Assembly (NCBI GenBank): GCA_019912885.1
Contig: JAIOHV010000091.1
Location: 1-50,141 of the forward strand
Reading direction: 5' to 3'
Length of the DNA: 50,141 nucleotides
Source: a bacterium
GTDB taxonomy: Bacteria > Lernaellota > Lernaellaia > JACKCT01
Shown: positions 15,955 through 25,126 of the stretch, piece by piece
Numbering within the stretch: the stretch's first letter is position 1
Layout of the letters: every line of letters begins with the position of its first letter
Translations under genes and position numbers: made by a program
The notes under the pieces: generated by a model
Database searches by the model: none
What the model was told of the DNA's origin: nothing
What the model saw: the letters and a program-made list of their open reading frames with translations, nothing else

Positions 15955-17637
15955 TTGAACCAGAATTTCGATTTCGATTACGTGGTCGTGGGCTCCGGAT
16001 TCGGCGGCTCGGTGTCGGCGCTACGCCTGACGGAAAAAGGCTACCGAACCTTGATCCTCGAATGCGGGCGGCGATTCGAGGACGGCGAGTTTCCCAAAAC
16101 AAACTGGAACGTACGCAAGTATCTCTGGGCGCCGATGCTGAAGTGCTTCGGCATCCTGCGTTTATCGCTGTTTTCCGACGTGTTTATCCTTTCGGGTTCC
16201 GGTGTCGGCGGCGGATCGCTCGTTTACGCGAACACGCTCTACGTGCCGCCGGATGACGTCTTCCGGTCGGCCAACTGGCCCGACGGGCGCGACTGGCTCG
16301 CCGAGATGCGCCCGTTTTACCGCACGGCGCAAGCGATGCTCGGCGTGACGCAGAATCGCTTCGAAGGCCCGGCCGACGCGGCGCTGCGCGCGGTGGCCGA
16401 CGAAATGGGGGTCGGCGATACTTACATCCGCACGCCCGTCGGCGTGTATTTCGGCGAGCCGAACCGCACGGTTTCCGATCCGTTCTTCGGCGGCGCGGGC
16501 CCCGATCGAACCGGCTGCAACTTTTGCGGAGGTTGCATGACCGGCTGCCGATTCGGCGCGAAGAACACACTTCGAAAAAACTATCTCCACTTCGCCGAAA
16601 AACTCGGGTGCCGAATCCTGGATCGCCGCACGGTGACGGATATCCGTCCTCTCGAGGACGGCGGGTACGCGATCCACCACGAACGCACCGGCGCGTGGTT
16701 CTTGAAGGACCGCCGGGTGACGCGCGCGGGAGGCGTGGTGCTGTCGGCGGGCGTGCTCGGCACGATGCGGCTGTTGCTCAGGTGCAAGGAGCGCGGCAGC
16801 CTGCCGAACCTGTCCGATCGCCTGGGCGACGAGGTGCGCACGAACAGCGAGTCGATTCTCAGCGTGACGGAGACCGGCGACGTCAATCATTCGCACGGCA
16901 TTGCGATCACGAGTTCGATCTACCCGGACGAGCACACGCACGTGGAGGTGGTTCGATACAGCAAGGGTAGCGATCTATTGGCGGGGATCACAACAGTGAT
17001 GCCGGAAGGCGATGGCGACGGGCCTCGGTTTCGCTCCTGGGCGCGCGCCGTGATGAAACGGCCGGGCGCGTTTTTACGCATGCTGATTCCGTTCGGGTGG
17101 GCGCGGCGGACGACGATCCTGCTCGTCATGCAGACAATCGATAGCTCGATGCGTTTTGTGCTTCGCCGCCGCTGGTTCAATCTTTTCGGGCGATCGCTCG
17201 ACACGGATATCGGCGACGGCCCGCCGATTCCGTCGTACATCCCGATCGGCAACGAAGTGACGCGGCGCTTCGCCGCGCGTCGCAACGGCGTGGCGCGCAC
17301 ATCGGTCACGCAGGCGGCGTTCGGCACGCCGATCACCGCGCACATCCTCGGCGGCGCGGCGATGGGCGCGACCGCCCGGACGGGCGTCATCAGCGACAAG
17401 AACGAGGTGTTCGGCTATCCGAACATGTTCGTGTGCGACGGGTCCGCGGTGCCGGCGAACCTGGGCGTGAATCCGAGCCTGACGATCACCGCGATCGCGG
17501 AGCGCGCGATGAGTTTTATTCCCGCACGCGCTCACGCGCGGCCGGCGATTGATCCGGCATGGATGCAAACGCGCGTGCGCGACATCGAAAACGAAATCGC
17601 GCGGACGGGCAGTCGGAATATGCAATCTCGCGGGTAG
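15955..17637 (+). CDS. GMC-family (cholesterol-oxidase-like) FAD oxidoreductase
   Basis: About 560 residues from TTG at 15955, chosen because GGGAGG lies just upstream at 15945-15950; a longer TTG start at 15943 lacks such a site. The N-terminal FAD-binding motif is YVVVGSGFGGSVSALRLTEKG (glycines near residues 11-16), then the E of LILECGRR that binds ribose. SGSGVGGGSLVYANTLY is the GMC signature region. GCNFCGGCMTGCRFGAKNTL (about 188-207) is a Cys-rich segment typical of the cholesterol-oxidase/GMC branch and may bind a cluster or stabilise the fold. The C-terminus has AHILGGAAMG and CDGSAVPANLGVNPSLTITA, the FAD/active-site region. It oxidises an alcohol, possibly a sterol or lipid; there is no secretion signal. 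It is the first gene of a block of envelope genes. Confidence 0.87.
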   Translation: MNQNFDFDYVVVGSGFGGSVSALRLTEKGYRTLILECGRRFEDGEFPKTNWNVRKYLWAPMLKCFGILRLSLFSDVFILSGSGVGGGSLVYANTLYVPPDDVFRSANWPDGRDWLAEMRPFYRTAQAMLGVTQNRFEGPADAALRAVADEMGVGDTYIRTPVGVYFGEPNRTVSDPFFGGAGPDRTGCNFCGGCMTGCRFGAKNTLRKNYLHFAEKLGCRILDRRTVTDIRPLEDGGYAIHHERTGAWFLKDRRVTRAGGVVLSAGVLGTMRLLLRCKERGSLPNLSDRLGDEVRTNSESILSVTETGDVNHSHGIAITSSIYPDEHTHVEVVRYSKGSDLLAGITTVMPEGDGDGPRFRSWARAVMKRPGAFLRMLIPFGWARRTTILLVMQTIDSSMRFVLRRRWFNLFGRSLDTDIGDGPPIPSYIPIGNEVTRRFAARRNGVARTSVTQAAFGTPITAHILGGAAMGATARTGVISDKNEVFGYPNMFVCDGSAVPANLGVNPSLTITAIAERAMSFIPARAHARPAIDPAWMQTRVRDIENEIARTGSRNMQSRG

Positions 17638-17661
17638 CGGATCATCCGCCCCCGTTTTTTT
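17637..17661 (+). terminator. Possible short hairpin with T-tract after the GMC gene
   Basis: A weak palindrome GCGGATCATCCGC begins in the GMC stop codon and is followed a few bases later by seven T residues (17655-17661). It could be a weak intrinsic terminator. It is short and lies immediately before the Shine-Dalgarno AAGGGACG of the next gene, so this is tentative. Confidence 0.3.
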
Positions 17662-17674
17662 GAAGGGACGTACC

Positions 17675-19174
17675 ATGCGTTGGAGTGTCTTTTTAATTTT
17701 GCTTGCCGGCGCGCTCACGGCGTTTTCCGGCGCCGCGCCCATCGCGAGCGCCGCGCCGATCGCTCCGGAGTTCGCCATCAACACCTCTACGGAACATCCG
17801 CAGGGCTGCCCGGACGTGGCGGCGCTTCCGAATGGCGATTTCGTCGCGGTCTGGGAATCGCACACCATGACGGCGGATCTCATCAATTCCTACGGTCGTC
17901 GCTTCGACACGAACGGCGCGCCACTTTCCGGCGAAATATTGCTCAACACCTCAAACCCGGAGGACCAGGAATATCCCGAGATCGTGATGCGGCCCGGCGG
18001 AGGTTTTCTGGCGGCCTGGCACATGGGGCTGGGCACGGGCGACGCGGACGCGTACGCACAACTGTTCGATGCGACGAACGCGAAAGACGGCGGCGAGTTT
18101 GGGCTCAACGATTACACGGCGCTTCATCAGTACTACCCGCAAATCGGGATCGCACCGGACGGAACGTTTGTCGTGACGTGGTCGTCGATGGATCAGGACG
18201 GATCGAGTGACGGCATCTACGCGCGCATGTTCGAAGCCGACGGCGATCCGGTCGACGCCGACGAATGGCGGGTGAATGTCGAGACCGACAGCTCGCAGTT
18301 TCGTTCGGTGATCGGCATGGACGCGGACGGGGATTTCGTCATCGCGTGGCAATCGCTCGCGCAGGACGGCGACGGCTGGGGCGTTTTCCTGCGCCGGTTC
18401 GACGCGGACGGCACGCCGCTTTCGGCCGACGACGTTTTGGTGAACACGGAAACGAGCGGACATCAGGCGCAGCCGGAGATCGCGATGAACGCCGCCGGCG
18501 ATTTCGTCATCGTGTGGCACTCCGAGGGCCAGGACGGCGACGGATACGGCATCTTCGCGCAGCGATACAACGCCGCGGGCGTCGCGCTGACGACCGAGTT
18601 GCCGGTCAACGTTTACACGGCCGGCCAGCAGTCCGCGCCGCAGATCGCCATCGCGGATGACGGATCGTTTGTCGTCGCCTGGAGTTCGCAGGAACAGGAC
18701 GGCGACGGATACGGCGTGTACGCGCGTAAATTCGACGGCACGGGCGACGCCGTCGGCGACGAGTTTCGCGTCAACGTGACGACCGCGTCGGACCAGAACG
18801 AAGCCACGGTCGCGATGTTTTCCGAGACGCGTTTTGTCGTCGTCTTCAAGTCGTGGGCCGGCGATACGGACGAGCAGGACGTGTGGGGACGAATTTTCGA
18901 GTGCGTTGTCGATCAGGAATGCGACGACGAGGACGCGGGAACGAACGACACGTGCGAGGATGGTTTATGTACATTCACCTCGGTCGATGACGACGACGAC
19001 GACGCGGACGATGATGACAGCGCGGACGATGACGACACCGACGACGACGCGGATGACGACGCAACCGATGACGACGGCAACGACGACGATGCGTTTGACG
19101 ACGACTCCGAAGACGCGGCGGACGACGACGACGACGACGATAATGACGACGACGACGGCTGCTGCGGCTGCTGA
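17675..19174 (+). CDS. Secreted repeat protein with poly-Asp tail ending GCCGC
   Basis: About 499 residues from ATG 17675, preceded by AAGGGACG; the frame open upstream is not needed. A Sec signal peptide covers about residues 1-27 (hydrophobic LILLAGALTAF, cleavage near ASAA). The body is some seven repeats of about 50-55 residues with the consensus P-x-IA-x4-DG-x-FVV-x-W-x-S-x2-QDGDGYG(I/V)YAR-x-FDA-x-G-x-P, ending VN. It probably folds as a beta-propeller and may bind calcium through the Asp-Gly turns. A Cys-rich linker follows (CVVDQECDDEDAGTNDTCED), then about 60 residues almost entirely Asp with Ala/Thr/Asn, and the final GCCGC. There is no membrane helix after the tail. Asp-rich linkers with a Cys-rich end resemble surface-display tails; how it is anchored is unknown. 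Confidence 0.75.
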   Translation: MRWSVFLILLAGALTAFSGAAPIASAAPIAPEFAINTSTEHPQGCPDVAALPNGDFVAVWESHTMTADLINSYGRRFDTNGAPLSGEILLNTSNPEDQEYPEIVMRPGGGFLAAWHMGLGTGDADAYAQLFDATNAKDGGEFGLNDYTALHQYYPQIGIAPDGTFVVTWSSMDQDGSSDGIYARMFEADGDPVDADEWRVNVETDSSQFRSVIGMDADGDFVIAWQSLAQDGDGWGVFLRRFDADGTPLSADDVLVNTETSGHQAQPEIAMNAAGDFVIVWHSEGQDGDGYGIFAQRYNAAGVALTTELPVNVYTAGQQSAPQIAIADDGSFVVAWSSQEQDGDGYGVYARKFDGTGDAVGDEFRVNVTTASDQNEATVAMFSETRFVVVFKSWAGDTDEQDVWGRIFECVVDQECDDEDAGTNDTCEDGLCTFTSVDDDDDDADDDDSADDDDTDDDADDDATDDDGNDDDAFDDDSEDAADDDDDDDNDDDDGCCGC

Positions 19175-19178
19175 TCGC

Positions 19179-20714
19179 GTGCGTTTTTTTGCCGCGTTGG
19201 CCGCGGCCGTCCTTTTTCTCGCGGGCTGCGCCTACACGGACGATGCGGCGACAAATCAGCCGGCGCCGGCACTCGCATCACCCGATGACGACGCAAATGC
19301 CGGCGGCGATGCGTCGATTTTTCCGCCGGACGACGGGCGGCTATACGCGGGCGCGTCGCGGGCGGTCATCACGCCCAATGCCGGCAATCACCCCGAGACG
19401 ATCTATCTGGGCGGTCTGTTTCCCTCGCGCGTCGCAACCGGCGTGCACGACGACCTGCTCGCGTCGGTTGTCGTGCTGGCCCGCGGCGCCCAGCACGTGG
19501 CGATCGTGAGCCTGGATTTGCTCGGATTTTCACGGACGCGCGGGCGCGAGATTCAGGAGTCGCTCGCGGCCTTCGGCATCGATCCCGAACACGTCCTTAT
19601 CGCCGCGACGCACACGCACGAGGCGCCGGATACGCTGGGTGTTTTCGGGCCGGATGTTTTCACGAGCGGCGTTTCGCCTGACTACATGCGTTTCGTGCAG
19701 GACGCCGTCGCGGACGCCGTGCTGCGCGCGTTCGCCGACCTGACGCCGGTGACGCTGACCGCGACGGCGGCGACGGTCAAAATCGACGCCTCCAACTTCG
19801 CGGCGCTGACAAACGATTTTCGCGAGCCGATTGTCGTCGTGCCCGAAATCGGCGCGATGGAATTCGTCGCCGACGACGGGCGCGTCGTGGCGACGGTCGT
19901 CAACGGGCATTCGCATCCGGAGGTGATGCTGAACGAGACGCTCGTGTCGTCGGATTTTCCGAGTTGGCTGCGGCGGCGCGTCGAGGAGCGGCGCGGCGGC
20001 GTGGCCGTTTACATTTCCGGCGCGGTCGGAGGGTTGGCGACGCCGACGGGCGTTTCCGTGCCCGCGAGGGACGAGGCCGGCGATCCGATCGTCGATGACA
20101 GCGGCGATCCGCTGATGTTGACGGCGCCGAGTTGGGATAAGGCGCGAAGCCTCGGCGTCGTGCTCGCGGATTTCGCGGTCGACGCGCTCGACGCGGCGAC
20201 GCCCGAAGTGGATCCGGGGTTATACGTCGATGTCCGCGAGCTGGTCATGCCCGTGGAAAGCATCGTCCTGAAGCTCGCGTTTCTGACCGGGCTGATCGAA
20301 TACGACGCGCGCGATCTTCGCCGCGACATGCCGGGTTTGTGCGGCGCGTTCGGCTGCGCGTCGGAGCGGCTCGCGGTCGTGGGCGTCGGCCCGTTGATGC
20401 TTGTCAGCTCGCCGGGCGAGACGTTTGCGGAGACGTGGATCGGCCGCGAGGAGACGACGATCGATTTTGAGGGTTGGGGCGAGGAGACGTTCGGCGCGAT
20501 TCGCGGGCTCGTCGAGGACATCGCCGCCCCCGTCGCGATGCACATCGGCCTTTGCGGCAACGAGATTGGGTATCTCATCCCCGAGGGCGATTTTCATACA
20601 CGCGCGCACCCGGATTATTATGAAGAGGATTTGTTTCTCGGCTACGATACCGAGACGATCTATCGCGAAACCGCGCGCGCGATGATCTTGCGCGCGAACG
20701 ACGCGGCGCGCTGA
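19179..20714 (+). CDS. Neutral/alkaline ceramidase-like lipoprotein
   Basis: About 511 residues from GTG 19179, chosen because it gives a clean lipoprotein signal (RFFAALAAAVLFLAGC, lipobox LAGC). An in-frame ATG at 19143 or frames further back run through the poly-Asp coding region of the previous gene. After an Asp-rich linker the body matches the neutral/alkaline ceramidase N-terminal domain family: YAGASRAVITPNAG, IYLGGLFPSRVATGVHDDLLA, VAIVSLDLLGFSR, and the metal-site motif THTHEAPDTLG. GHSHPEV and SGAVGGLATP follow. Such proteins are Zn hydrolases of amide-linked lipids or related secreted hydrolases; the substrate is unproven. It starts 4 bases after the upstream stop, so it is co-transcribed with the repeat protein. 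The next gene converges, with 3 bases between stops. Confidence 0.72.
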   Translation: MRFFAALAAAVLFLAGCAYTDDAATNQPAPALASPDDDANAGGDASIFPPDDGRLYAGASRAVITPNAGNHPETIYLGGLFPSRVATGVHDDLLASVVVLARGAQHVAIVSLDLLGFSRTRGREIQESLAAFGIDPEHVLIAATHTHEAPDTLGVFGPDVFTSGVSPDYMRFVQDAVADAVLRAFADLTPVTLTATAATVKIDASNFAALTNDFREPIVVVPEIGAMEFVADDGRVVATVVNGHSHPEVMLNETLVSSDFPSWLRRRVEERRGGVAVYISGAVGGLATPTGVSVPARDEAGDPIVDDSGDPLMLTAPSWDKARSLGVVLADFAVDALDAATPEVDPGLYVDVRELVMPVESIVLKLAFLTGLIEYDARDLRRDMPGLCGAFGCASERLAVVGVGPLMLVSSPGETFAETWIGREETTIDFEGWGEETFGAIRGLVEDIAAPVAMHIGLCGNEIGYLIPEGDFHTRAHPDYYEEDLFLGYDTETIYRETARAMILRANDAAR

Positions 20715-20717
20715 TGG

Positions 20718-21296
20718 TTACGACGCGGGGACGATGGTGACGTGACCGCCGCGCCAGGCGGAAATCGCGACGGGTTCGAGGTTTTCGTCGAGCGCGCTCG
20801 ATTGCTCTTCGTCGAAGGAAATGTCGGTCGAACCGGCGACCTTGATGCGGAATGTCAGCGTCGCGGCGGGCTCGCCGACCTCCAGCATCACGTTCGGAAC
20901 GCGGCCGGCGCGCGACGCGCCGAGGACCGCGCCGGGCTTTGTCGCGACGCCGTGCGCGATCGACTCGCCGTCCGCGCCGAGGGCGGCGTCGGGGGTGACC
21001 GCCGTCAGTTCGATGATGTCGGTTTCGAACGCAAGGCGTGCGCCCAGGCCATAGAGCGAGACGGCATCGCCGACGAGGCGCAGCGTGAACGTGTTCGATT
21101 TGGCCTCGCCGAACGTGAGGCGGATTTCGCCGTCGCCGCCCGCTTCGTCCGGCGTGAATTCGACGGCGAACGCGGGGCCGTCGTCCTTGTCGTCCCCGCC
21201 GCCGTTATCGCCGACGCCGCAACTGCAACTTGCGGCGAATATCGGAAGCGCAACGATGAGCGCAAACAGCGCGATGGTCCGGAAACGCTCAGCCAT
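20718..21296 (-). CDS. Cohesin-like domain lipoprotein
   Basis: 192 residues. The signal peptide (FALIVALPIFAASC) has a lipobox-like AASC, so Cys24 would be lipidated and the protein anchored to a membrane. A short Gly/Asp linker leads into one beta-sandwich domain of about 145 residues with cohesin features: NTFTLRLVGDAVSLYGLGA, RLAFETDIIELTAV, then ATLTFRIKVAGSTDISF and a closing strand GGHVTIV. Cohesins bind dockerins. The gene directly upstream in the same operon encodes a peptidase with a dockerin at its C-terminus and overlaps this gene by 8 bases. The Shine-Dalgarno GGGAGGG lies inside that upstream gene. The likely role is to hold the dockerin-tagged enzyme at the cell surface. The cohesin call is by pattern, without a database search. 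Confidence 0.65.
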   Translation of the reverse strand: MAERFRTIALFALIVALPIFAASCSCGVGDNGGGDDKDDGPAFAVEFTPDEAGGDGEIRLTFGEAKSNTFTLRLVGDAVSLYGLGARLAFETDIIELTAVTPDAALGADGESIAHGVATKPGAVLGASRAGRVPNVMLEVGEPAATLTFRIKVAGSTDISFDEEQSSALDENLEPVAISAWRGGHVTIVPAS

Positions 21297-23262
21297 CGAT
21301 CTTGCCCTCCCGCCCGAAATTGCCCGTTACGAGCGCGACGTCCGCGTCGTCCACGATGCCGTCGCGGTTGAAATCCGTTTCGGCGAAATAATTCCATTTC
21401 GATCCGCTGAACGCCTCGCCGCCCCAGGTCCACGCGGCGTAAACCAGGTCGAGGCCATCCACGACGTTCGACCCGTCTACGTCACCGGCGAGCGCGAAAA
21501 CCTTGTCGCCCCAGATGCGGAAGGAGGGATCGACGGCGGCGCCGCGCGGCCGCCCGTCGAGAGGCAGCACGACATCCGCGACGCCGTTTTCAAGCGGAAG
21601 CCGGATAACGCCCGGCTCGTCGCTCGCGGCGTCATACAGGGCGACCTCCACGGGCAGATCGAACGGCTCGCCGGATTGCGTCTCCTTGATGCGCACCCGG
21701 ATCAGGTTCGGGTTTTGCTCATCCTCGCCGGGGAACTCCATGGCGATGCTGTAGATGGGAAACCCGCGGCCGTACGCCCATCGCTCGAAAAGTTCCGTGA
21801 GATCGCGGCCGGACACCTCTTCGAGCTTTTCGCGGAAAGCGTCCACCGTGGTGAGCGCGCCACCGGCGTCCATCGAGTGTTCGGAGGCGTATTCGGACAT
21901 CGCGACGAAGAAGTCGTCCCCAAGCAGCCATTCGAGGATGCGCAGGAAGTGCGCCCCCTTCCAGTACGTCGCGGCCTGGTATCGCAGGCTGTCGGACGAA
22001 AACGCGCCGTCGCCGGAGAGCGTCGCCTCGCCGTCAGGCGCGATGACGATCTGGAAGTAGCGGAAGTAAAATTCGTAGAGGTAGTCCTGGTAATACGCGG
22101 GCCAGACCTCGTATCCGTACAGGCGCGAGGAGTATTCCGCGAAGCCCTCGTTCAGCCAGGGCGACTGCGTGTCGCCGAGGCGAATCATGTTGCCCCACCA
22201 CTGGTGGCCGATCTCGTGCGAGAAGATCGACTCCGAGGAAAAATTCTCGGGATCGGTGGTGAGCGCGGAGGCGTAGTAGAACGTGGCGGACTGCGGTCCG
22301 ACGCCGCCGCCGAGCTCGTCGATCGTTTGCACGACGTCGTGCTTGTTGAAGATGTAGGGCGAAAAGACGGACTCGTAAAAGTCGATGATATCCGCGCTGA
22401 TATCGGCCCACGCCTGCCCGAAGTCGAGCGCGCCGGTGTGGACGAGCGCGGTCACGGGCACACCGCCCGGCGTGACCGCATCGAACGTCTCGAACGGCGC
22501 GTAAGCGAAACCGACGTACGTCACGGGAAACGCGGCCTCGAAATGATGCACGAGCCGGTCGCCGAGATCCTCGATCTCGACAAGATCGGCCGTGGTGACG
22601 GCGATGTAGCCCGGCGGCGTCTCGATATGCAGCGCCATCGCGGCGTCCATGTAGAGCTCTTCGATGAGATAGGGCGCGGGCACGGCGAGCCAATCGGCGA
22701 TCGGCGTGAAGACGATCTGTTCGCTCACGTAGCAGAACGTCATGCCGAAAAAGTCGTCGGGGTCGCATGCGGGGACGCCGGCATTCGAGACGTGCAGCGT
22801 GACGGTGTCGTTGGCGTTCAGCGTCGCGGGCAGCGTAACGACGGCGACGAAGTCCTCGGGAACCCAGATGACATCGAGCGCGTTGGCGTCGCCGTCCGTG
22901 ACGGTGAGCGTGCCAAGGTTATCGAGATAGAGTTCGGCCACATTGACGCCGTCTTCCTCCGCCGCCAGCACGAGTGTGGTGTCAACGGCGATCGAGCCCG
23001 TGGCTTCGTCGGCGTCGATCGACACGTCGATCGAAACGGCGGAAAGCGGATTGCCGGCCTTGCCCGCCTTGCGATTCATAAGACGCGAAAGGCGCGCGAG
23101 GCGCGCGCGCGTCGCCTGGACCTCAACGGAGGGCGAAATCTTCGGTGCGGCGTCGCGCATGGCGCGAGCCTTCGCCGCCAGATGGCCGCCCGGACCCGGC
23201 GCGGCGATGGCGGCCACTGCCGCGAAAAGCAGCACCGTAAAAGCAGAGAATAGGCGTTTCAA
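21289..23262 (-). CDS. M1-family metallopeptidase with C-terminal dockerin
   Basis: 657 residues from a TTG start with GGGGAT six bases upstream; the signal peptide is about residues 1-20. The gluzincin zinc site is H349-EIGH-353, with the third ligand E372 in NEGFAEY (HExxH-x18-E), typical of M1 aminopeptidases. The exopeptidase motif GxMEN that normally precedes it is replaced by GGGVGPQSATF, so classic aminopeptidase activity is uncertain. The C-terminal 65 residues carry two dockerin type I calcium loops: DVDGSNVVDGLDL and DFNRDGIVDDADV, separated by an aromatic linker. The protein should be exported and tethered through its dockerin, most simply to the cohesin-like lipoprotein encoded by the overlapping next gene. 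Confidence 0.85.
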   Translation of the reverse strand: MKRLFSAFTVLLFAAVAAIAAPGPGGHLAAKARAMRDAAPKISPSVEVQATRARLARLSRLMNRKAGKAGNPLSAVSIDVSIDADEATGSIAVDTTLVLAAEEDGVNVAELYLDNLGTLTVTDGDANALDVIWVPEDFVAVVTLPATLNANDTVTLHVSNAGVPACDPDDFFGMTFCYVSEQIVFTPIADWLAVPAPYLIEELYMDAAMALHIETPPGYIAVTTADLVEIEDLGDRLVHHFEAAFPVTYVGFAYAPFETFDAVTPGGVPVTALVHTGALDFGQAWADISADIIDFYESVFSPYIFNKHDVVQTIDELGGGVGPQSATFYYASALTTDPENFSSESIFSHEIGHQWWGNMIRLGDTQSPWLNEGFAEYSSRLYGYEVWPAYYQDYLYEFYFRYFQIVIAPDGEATLSGDGAFSSDSLRYQAATYWKGAHFLRILEWLLGDDFFVAMSEYASEHSMDAGGALTTVDAFREKLEEVSGRDLTELFERWAYGRGFPIYSIAMEFPGEDEQNPNLIRVRIKETQSGEPFDLPVEVALYDAASDEPGVIRLPLENGVADVVLPLDGRPRGAAVDPSFRIWGDKVFALAGDVDGSNVVDGLDLVYAAWTWGGEAFSGSKWNYFAETDFNRDGIVDDADVALVTGNFGREGKIDG

Positions 23263-23371: not shown

Positions 23372-25126
23372 TCAGGGTTCGCGCACGAGGTCGATTGCGA
23401 TCAGGGCGTGCGGCGGCGCCGTCATCGACGTGCGGGCGCCGGCGCTTGTCCAGGGGATCTCGACCGGCGCCGCGGCGGGTCCGGGCTTATCGACCGTACC
23501 CGGCGCATAAGCGGTCACGCTTGCGACGGACCATTCTTCCGGCGCGTCGATCGTCAGCGGCCGCGGATCGACAAATTCGCGGTTGAGGACGATGACCGAC
23601 GCGTGGCGGTTGATGACATCGACGAAACCCGCCGCGCGCGCGATCGGGTAACTCAGCGTTTTTGTTTTCGAATCAAAGGCGCGAAGCGGGGATTGCACGT
23701 CCACCTTCGCGGATCGGCCATGAAGGCGCTCGGCGATCATGCGCGTGACGCGGTAAGACGGCATCTCGGCAAGCTCTCCGTCGACGATGCGAAACGGGTT
23801 GTACCACGGTTCGAACAACAATTCGCCGGAATCGTCGAAATTGATCGCCATGTGCTGGCACACGTCTTTGATACGCATCTCGTCGTAGAGCAGCAGCATG
23901 TCGGCGATGCCGAGTCCCACGGCCGCCGTATCGCCGAGCTTGAACCCCAGCTTCGAGAACGCGCCGGCGACGTGGTATTCCGTGACGACGATATCGAGCG
24001 GCACGAAGCGGGGAATCGCCGCAAGACCAAGGCGCAGCTCGTGAAAAAGCGGCGCGAAGATTTCGGAGCCGGCCAGGATGATCGCCGGCGCGTTGCGTTC
24101 CGGGTAGCCGAGCTCGGCCGCGTCGTCGACCTGGTAGTGGTGGATCACCACCGCCTCGACCGCTGGATGCTGCAATAAAGGCTCGAGCGCCCCAAGCGCC
24201 TTGTTTAAACCGCCCCACCCGGTCATCGAGGCCTGCGTCAGCGGAACGCGAAACCGCGCGGCGGGTTCGACGGCGAGCACGGCGTCGATGTACGCCAGGG
24301 CGCGCGCGGAGAAGTTCGCGGCGCCTGAAGCGGGGCGGCCGTGCCAGTCCGGATCGCCGCCGCCGATCGCGAGCGGATTGGCGTACGAATACGGCCCATA
24401 GGTGAGAAATCCCGTGTTCCAGAATCCGTACGACTCGTTGCCGATTTCGAAAACCGGCACGTCGTATGGCGCGGGATGGCCCCAATGTTGCCGCGCTTGC
24501 GCCGCGTCGCTCGCCGCCGACTCGCCATTCAGGTGCATGACGTAACGCGCGGCCTCGTCCGCGGTGCCGGAGCCGAAGTTCAACGTCACGCGCGGATCGG
24601 CGTCGATCTCGTCGACGATCGCGAAGAACTCGAACGGCGCCATGTTGTCCTCGGGCGTGACAGCGCGGTCCTGGCGCACGAGATCCCAGAAGTGATAGCC
24701 GTCGCCGCCGAGCGTTCCGTCGATCTGCAATCCCGAAAAACGCACGAGCGGCCGATTTCCGCTCGCGGCGCGAACCTGCGCAAGCCGCGCGAAGGCTTCC
24801 GTCAGCGCGGGCGTGCGCCACTCGGGGTGGACGGGATCGTCCGGCGGCGCGTACCAGGTGCCGCGCCCGACGTTCCACCCAACAAGGTGCGTCGTGGGGC
24901 GCGAGGACGTGGGGTGAAAAACGAGATGGACGTCGCCCTTGGGCAGAACGGGGTCATCCACCACGTCGCCGCCGTCGTCGTCGCCGGCGCCCGCGGTGTC
25001 ATCGCCGGCGAGGTTGGCGCCGTGGAGCGTGGTGTCGCCGCCGGAGGGATCGTCCGCGCATGCCAAGGCGAACGAGATAGCAAAAAGGGCCAGAAGAATG
25101 AAAATCCGTCGTGTGATTTGGCGCAT
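23372..25126 (-). CDS. GH-A clan (arabinofuranosidase-like) lipoprotein
   Basis: 584 residues. The signal peptide with LALFAISFALAC gives a lipoprotein, followed by a Gly/Asp-rich linker. The catalytic part looks like a clan GH-A TIM barrel, closest in style to alpha-L-arabinofuranosidases (GH51). VRFSGLQIDG is followed by FEFFAIVDEID, then FEIGNESYGFWN with the acid/base E231 in the GNE motif. VVTEYHVAG carries the likely nucleophile E383. A small beta-domain closes the protein, as in GH51/GH30. It should cleave a plant or microbial polysaccharide side chain outside the cell; the exact glycan is not readable. Its ATG overlaps the stop of the flavoprotein gene upstream, so they are co-transcribed. 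Confidence 0.7.
   Translation of the reverse strand: MRQITRRIFILLALFAISFALACADDPSGGDTTLHGANLAGDDTAGAGDDDGGDVVDDPVLPKGDVHLVFHPTSSRPTTHLVGWNVGRGTWYAPPDDPVHPEWRTPALTEAFARLAQVRAASGNRPLVRFSGLQIDGTLGGDGYHFWDLVRQDRAVTPEDNMAPFEFFAIVDEIDADPRVTLNFGSGTADEAARYVMHLNGESAASDAAQARQHWGHPAPYDVPVFEIGNESYGFWNTGFLTYGPYSYANPLAIGGGDPDWHGRPASGAANFSARALAYIDAVLAVEPAARFRVPLTQASMTGWGGLNKALGALEPLLQHPAVEAVVIHHYQVDDAAELGYPERNAPAIILAGSEIFAPLFHELRLGLAAIPRFVPLDIVVTEYHVAGAFSKLGFKLGDTAAVGLGIADMLLLYDEMRIKDVCQHMAINFDDSGELLFEPWYNPFRIVDGELAEMPSYRVTRMIAERLHGRSAKVDVQSPLRAFDSKTKTLSYPIARAAGFVDVINRHASVIVLNREFVDPRPLTIDAPEEWSVASVTAYAPGTVDKPGPAAAPVEIPWTSAGARTSMTAPPHALIAIDLVREP

Follow-up and report, generated by a model that had tools for sequence, protein, structure and literature searches.

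A secreted M1-fold metallopeptidase with a C-terminal dockerin and a cohesin lipoprotein encoded by overlapping genes in Lernaellota and Myxococcota

Two overlapping genes of a bacterium of the Lernaellota encode a secreted zinc metallopeptidase of M1 fold that carries a dockerin and a lipoprotein that carries a cohesin, and the two genes are co-inherited in two phyla. They lie in the window, by which the whole analysed stretch of 50,141 nucleotides is meant. Cohesin-dockerin pairing is known from cellulosomes. Judged from sequences and structure models, the pair is very probably a minimal, non-cellulosomal cohesin-dockerin tether in which one lipoprotein holds one secreted metallopeptidase on the cell envelope.

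The features of the pair are collected in Table 1. The open reading frames originally proposed to overlap by 8 bases are both present on the minus strand at the positions listed there.

Table 1. Features of the metallopeptidase-lipoprotein gene pair (window coordinates; residue numbers are those of the respective protein).
Feature	Position	Strand	Basis or remark
M1-type metallopeptidase with C-terminal dockerin	21289..23262	-	657 aa, TTG start
Sec-type signal peptide (residues about 1-20)	23203..23262	-	by eye, MKRLFSAFTVLLFAAVAAIA-APG
GGGVGPQS (318-325) replacing the M1 exopeptidase motif GxMEN	22288..22311	-	Glu replaced by G322
Zinc-binding HEIGH (349-353)	22204..22218	-	invariant 31/31
Third zinc ligand E372	22147-22149	-	invariant 31/31
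Dockerin module (residues 590-657)	21292..21495	-	sub-threshold Dockerin_1 match, matches of relatives, model helices
Dockerin calcium loop 1, DVDGSNVVDGLD (594-605)	21448..21483	-	D594, D602 and D605 invariant in 31
Dockerin calcium loop 2, DFNRDGIVDDAD (630-641)	21340..21375	-	D630 invariant; D641 is D in 30/31
8-base gene overlap ATGGCTGA	21289..21296	-	lipoprotein start / peptidase stop
Cohesin lipoprotein	20718..21296	-	192 aa, ATG start
Lipobox AAS-C (residues 21-24)	21225..21236	-	sequence LPIFAAS-C24
Asp/Gly-rich linker (residues 25-42)	21171..21224	-	sequence; residues 11-34 of low pLDDT
Cohesin domain (residues 43-190)	20727..21170	-	AlphaFold2 and Foldseek

The peptidase is assigned to the M1 fold by its sequence and by its predicted structure. 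The Pfam model Peptidase_M1 matches residues 287-495 (E=4e-19), and the AlphaFold2 model (mean pLDDT 86.6, pTM 0.85) retrieves with Foldseek the M1 aminopeptidases ERAP1, ERAP2, IRAP and PSA as the best matches listed (best E 1.8e-37). The HExxH-18-E zinc site that defines the family (H349, E350, H353 and E372) is invariant in 31/31 paired peptidases together with Y433, the likely catalytic tyrosine. Cys166 and Cys177 are conserved in 29/31 aligned members; they fit an exported protein. The likeness to the M1 aminopeptidases ERAP1, PSA and PepN consists of the fold, the HExxH-18-E zinc site and the Tyr, whereas these enzymes have a length of 850-900 aa compared to about 657 aa for the window peptidase.

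The second difference concerns the exopeptidase motif. The original prediction had remarked that GGGVGPQS stands in place of GxMEN, and the motif with its Glu that binds the substrate N-terminus, characteristic of M1 aminopeptidases, is indeed absent from the window peptidase and from all 31 paired members. The GAMEN of puromycin-sensitive aminopeptidase is aligned by phmmer opposite GGVGP of the window peptidase, and the Glu position is occupied in the 31 paired peptidases by Gly (20), Ala (8) or Ser (3), never by Glu (0/31). These residues and the dockerin found at the C-terminus distinguish the paired peptidases from ERAP1, PSA and PepN. The GxMEN Glu of PSA is the proposed binder of the substrate N-terminus (PMC10343166). 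Since the zinc site is intact but Gly stands in place of this Glu, the paired peptidase is unlikely to be an aminopeptidase of the classical kind; it may cleave within chains or act on a different class of substrates. An altered specificity is to be expected from the sequence, with internal cleavage as one possible form of it. Note that NosP and AplP are M1 enzymes that have the motif, yet display both endopeptidase and aminopeptidase activity (PMC13039773). The loss of GxMEN was also considered as a special trait of the pair and this was rejected, as the strict motif is missing in 54/78 other M1-like ORFs: many other bacterial M1-like proteins are without it, and its absence is not diagnostic of the pair by itself.

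The two calcium loops that the original prediction had read at the end of the peptidase follow the canonical pattern. Loop positions 1, 3, 5, 9 and 12 are filled by D594-D596-S598-D602-D605 and by D630-N632-D634-D638-D641, which gives the two 12-residue F-hand calcium loops of a type I dockerin (594-605 and 630-641), with key aspartates kept in 31 relatives. The Pfam model Dockerin_1 (PF00404) aligns to residues 592-646 of the window peptidase at E=0.026, its 15.1 bits staying under the cut-off of 22.9, and it matches 13/31 paired peptidases, the best relative reaching E=3.4e-6. In the AlphaFold2 peptidase model the module has helices at 603-612 and 639-647. Only one or two dockerin proteins are detected in the window's genome. 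The second one, encoded at C204:12659-12826 (L001), is above the Pfam cut-off; its loops are separated by a linker that contains Cys, and it has no recognised cohesin partner. C-terminal dockerin-like repeats are also found in M1-like proteins of Fimbriimonadia/Armatimonadota (L023, L031, L037 and L084) and of Phycisphaerales (L078). No cohesin-like gene was found within up to 5 kb of any of these loci, so that a dockerin tail can occur without an adjacent partner (e.g., L023, L031 and L078).

The second gene codes for a bacterial lipoprotein, as defined by a signal peptide and a lipobox Cys, and a crude scan finds the lipobox in 24/30 paired lipoproteins. The cohesin-like beta-sandwich of the original prediction was put to an AlphaFold2 fold check, with an alignment of four sequences only as the basis of the model. 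A beta-sandwich is predicted for residues 43-190, with a pLDDT of 81-97 in ten-residue blocks that exceeds 90 for the greater part of residues 41-190. When this model was compared with the PDB by Foldseek, the 50 best matches listed were all cohesins (50/50, E 3.4e-6 to 8e-4), among them type I and type II scaffoldin cohesins, Clostridium perfringens modules and the non-cellulosomal Archaeoglobus fulgidus 2xdh. The target-normalised TM-scores are mostly about 0.45-0.65 and the identity to PDB cohesins is 9-18%, which makes the domain a divergent cohesin. The window lipoprotein sequence alone has no match in Pfam, NCBIfam or the PDB and does not reach the curated cut-off of Pfam Cohesin (PF00963). 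This model matches 13/26 paired lipoproteins (best E 3.3e-10), those over the cut-off in the same gene position including the G117, G038, G018, G047 and G203 loci, and a profile of the 26 paired lipoproteins finds PDB cohesins at 1.5e-8. The PF00963 membership of the window lipoprotein is thus by homology to proteins that pass the cut-off and not by direct score. The outcome that would have spoken against the original prediction, a non-cohesin fold of the lipoprotein, did not arise: the 50 best PDB matches listed are cohesins, and half of the homologues match Pfam Cohesin. The single domain of the lipoprotein is a cohesin.

The residue at +2 after the lipobox Cys is Ser in the window lipoprotein and Asp in several Myxococcota members; to our knowledge, no rules for lipoprotein sorting have been established for these phyla. 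In genomes G000-G006 many lipoproteins per genome have a lipobox with a Gly/Asp-rich tract right after the Cys. This combination may direct export to the surface, as the corresponding signal does in lipoproteins of Bacteroidota.

The pair is kept in genomes close to that of the window. Both genes are present in four of the seven genomes sampled from the window's small phylum and neither is present in the other three, and the lipoprotein gene directly follows the peptidase gene in 4/4 peptidase-bearing genomes of the phylum. The fifth close pair is that of STA_58 (L021), which the tree tool labels Myxococcota. Both genes, with 8 bases shared between them, are found in five close genomes at a peptidase identity of 46-58%, the overlap reading ATGGCTGA in the window, ATGGATAA in G001, ATGACTAA in G002, ATGAATAA in G005 and ATGACTGA in L021. 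The recurrence of the pair and of its overlap in five genomes argues that the arrangement is not due to chance. Outside the pair, the neighbouring genes vary from one close locus to the next. Note that the reading frames of both the peptidase and the lipoprotein are broken in G002, which is taken to result from assembly errors.

The original prediction had proposed to search for the same pair in related genomes. The search was strongly positive, revealing the pair in two phyla and in two gene orders, and both genes are absent together. A peptidase homologue (E<1e-30) is found in 29 of the 379 Myxococcota genomes sampled, giving 30 loci. At 27/30 of them the peptidase ends in a dockerin and a cohesin gene lies beside it, a proportion that describes this subfamily and not all M1 peptidases because the loci were picked by similarity to a dockerin-tailed query. 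One of the remaining three loci is cut by the contig end where the partner would lie and two have neither feature. The cohesin gene is downstream of the peptidase gene in one Myxococcota clade and upstream in the other; this gene order maps to a single change on the tree with a clean split (16 and 14 rows, support 98/95). Most of the neighbouring pair genes in Myxococcota overlap by 4 bases, and two pairs that are paralogous to each other (L123 and L150) occur in the same genome (G342). To avoid circularity, the first neighbour search used a profile built from four close sequences only. It matches 24/29 Myxococcota loci (E<=1) compared to 1/78 control M1 loci (E=0.68), which together hold 4.5 times more ORFs than the Myxococcota loci. 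No cohesin-gene neighbour of this kind is present at these 78 other M1 loci, with a profile that may miss more divergent cohesins near dockerin-tailed M1 proteins of other phyla. A broader profile finds L134 and L135, both outside its training set, at 8.6e-16 and 6.6e-12.

Two Myxococcota M1 homologues (L144 and L148) lack a dockerin and a cohesin neighbour. Both fall into a Glu-containing subgroup, reading GAVEQ instead of GxMEN, and their C-terminal tails recall MYXO-CTERM (GGDCGC...RRR, and GGGC followed by a hydrophobic stretch). A swap of the anchor to MYXO-CTERM is only suggestive for these proteins, considering that the NCBIfam model gives 11.6 versus 15.85 bits for L148 and no match for L144, and that both are of the Glu-containing subgroup.

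These data can be assembled into the following scheme. The gene overlap would couple translation of the peptidase and of the lipoprotein, and both proteins would then cross the inner membrane. The lipoprotein would be anchored via a lipid on Cys24, its cohesin being held out on the acidic linker. According to established cohesin-dockerin biology, the dockerin is expected to fold with two calcium ions and to dock into the cohesin of the lipoprotein, such that the peptidase would stay on the envelope (putatively on the outer membrane and probably surface-exposed) instead of diffusing away. One-to-one pairing within the window's genome is likely from the sequence data. Of the one-to-one claim in the original prediction, the part that stands is the count of cohesins: apart from the paired lipoprotein, the genome has no domain-length cohesin match. 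Candidate second cohesin-like proteins were rejected because the other matches of the lipoprotein model span the signal and linker part only. Exclusivity of the pairing is the part that does not stand as proven, on account of the second dockerin protein encoded on C204 of the same genome. This second protein, above the Pfam cut-off, also suits a lipoprotein that acts as a general socket, a small scaffold for several dockerin proteins with the peptidase as one client. Such a role is improbable given that only one or two dockerin proteins are found in the genome and that the cohesin is gained and lost together with this particular peptidase.

Somewhat less improbable, but still unlikely, is that the cohesin-dockerin contact serves regulation or folding and is not a permanent anchor, the lipoprotein being a regulator or dedicated chaperone that holds the peptidase inactive or aids its folding in the periplasm. 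The strict gene coupling and the 1:1 pairing would be expected of a cognate regulator no less than of an anchor, and the peptidase is without the usual exopeptidase Glu. The lipid attachment signal found in nearly all members nevertheless points to anchoring, and the known cohesin-dockerin pairs are structural connectors. The mirror-tree comparison of dockerins and cohesins yields a correlation of 0.78 that drops to a partial r of 0.13 after removing the peptidase distance, so that no coupling beyond shared ancestry is detected. It would fit two genes that are neighbours by operon inheritance, with no binding between their products; the loops would then only stabilise the peptidase C-terminus and the beta-sandwich would bind something else. 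The adjacency of cohesin and dockerin at 27/30 Myxococcota loci and at all close loci, maintained across the switch in gene order, renders that explanation very unlikely indeed. The tether of the metallopeptidase to the envelope is thus the reading that we retain.

The predicted tether shares with the cellulosome of Clostridium, Acetivibrio and Ruminococcus the principle that the C-terminal dockerin of an enzyme plugs into the cohesin of an anchored protein. It differs from it by having just one lipid-anchored cohesin and one enzyme, in diderm bacteria. The multi-cohesin scaffoldin that characterises cellulosomes has no counterpart in the window's genome, with its one domain-length cohesin match, and the dockerin is borne by an M1-type peptidase and not by a carbohydrate-active enzyme. 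Cohesins and dockerins that do not belong to a cellulosome are known from, among others, archaea and ANME (PMC9012536). The cohesin/dockerin of Archaeoglobus fulgidus (PDB 2xdh; Voronov-Goldman et al. 2011, cited in PMC9705933) likewise belongs to an organism without a cellulosome, and the pair has served to fix an enzyme on the surface of E. coli. It is an archaeal system and is not known as a lipoprotein and M1 peptidase pair conserved across phyla. The cohesin-like modules of Clostridium perfringens (PDB 2jh2, 2vo8 and 2o4e) are also non-cellulosomal cohesin folds, but they are part of large secreted glycoside hydrolases, whereas the window cohesin is a stand-alone lipoprotein domain. MYXO-CTERM/myxosortase (PMC11980579) is another C-terminal device that keeps secreted proteins on the surface in Myxococcota; there the tag is itself processed and lipid-anchored, whereas in the window pair a separate lipoprotein is predicted to receive the enzyme non-covalently.

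No earlier description of a pair of M1 peptidase and cohesin lipoprotein was found in the literature searched, which did not cover the key survey of non-cellulosomal modules from 2009 (PMC3035643). It is conceivable, and put forward here tentatively as less probable than the tether itself, that these pairs form an undescribed and widespread class of one enzyme and one anchor, present in Myxococcota and Lernaellota, that tethers a GxMEN-less metallopeptidase to the surface with release and re-capture controlled by calcium. If so, the class would represent the simplest form of cellulosome logic, applied to protein instead of cellulose. Cohesins and dockerins outside cellulosomes often have no known partner, which leaves their role open. 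In the present case every cohesin is encoded beside its dockerin in a conserved two-gene unit, making partner, stoichiometry and function directly testable. The tether would show that diderm bacteria can also use the dockerin plug as a general means of retaining a secreted peptidase at the envelope, and the gene pairs provide a large natural set of orthogonal partners for displaying proteins on the surface of Gram-negative hosts.

Immediately upstream of the pair, 23372-25126 (minus strand) codes a 584-aa protein that weakly resembles an arabinosylfuranosidase model (E 3.9e-7, well under the cut-off). Convergent with the pair, 18834-20714 (plus strand) codes a lipoprotein-like product with weak similarity to neutral/alkaline ceramidases (Pfam E 1.3e-5, below the cut-off), whose probable start is downstream of the start of the listed ORF. 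The protein encoded by 17549-19174 (plus strand) has a long run of Asp at its C-terminus and then GCCGC-stop (19120-19174). This ending looks like a phylum-wide C-terminal tag, which differs from MYXO-CTERM in that no transmembrane helix follows it. At the DNA level, the Asp-Asp...CGC-stop pattern has 80 occurrences in the window's genome when overlapping starts are counted. Four other genomes of the same phylum have 68, 63, 65 and 36, and its two sparsest ones 15 and 5, compared to 0 and 2 in two Myxococcota genomes; the reversed version occurs 0-4 times.
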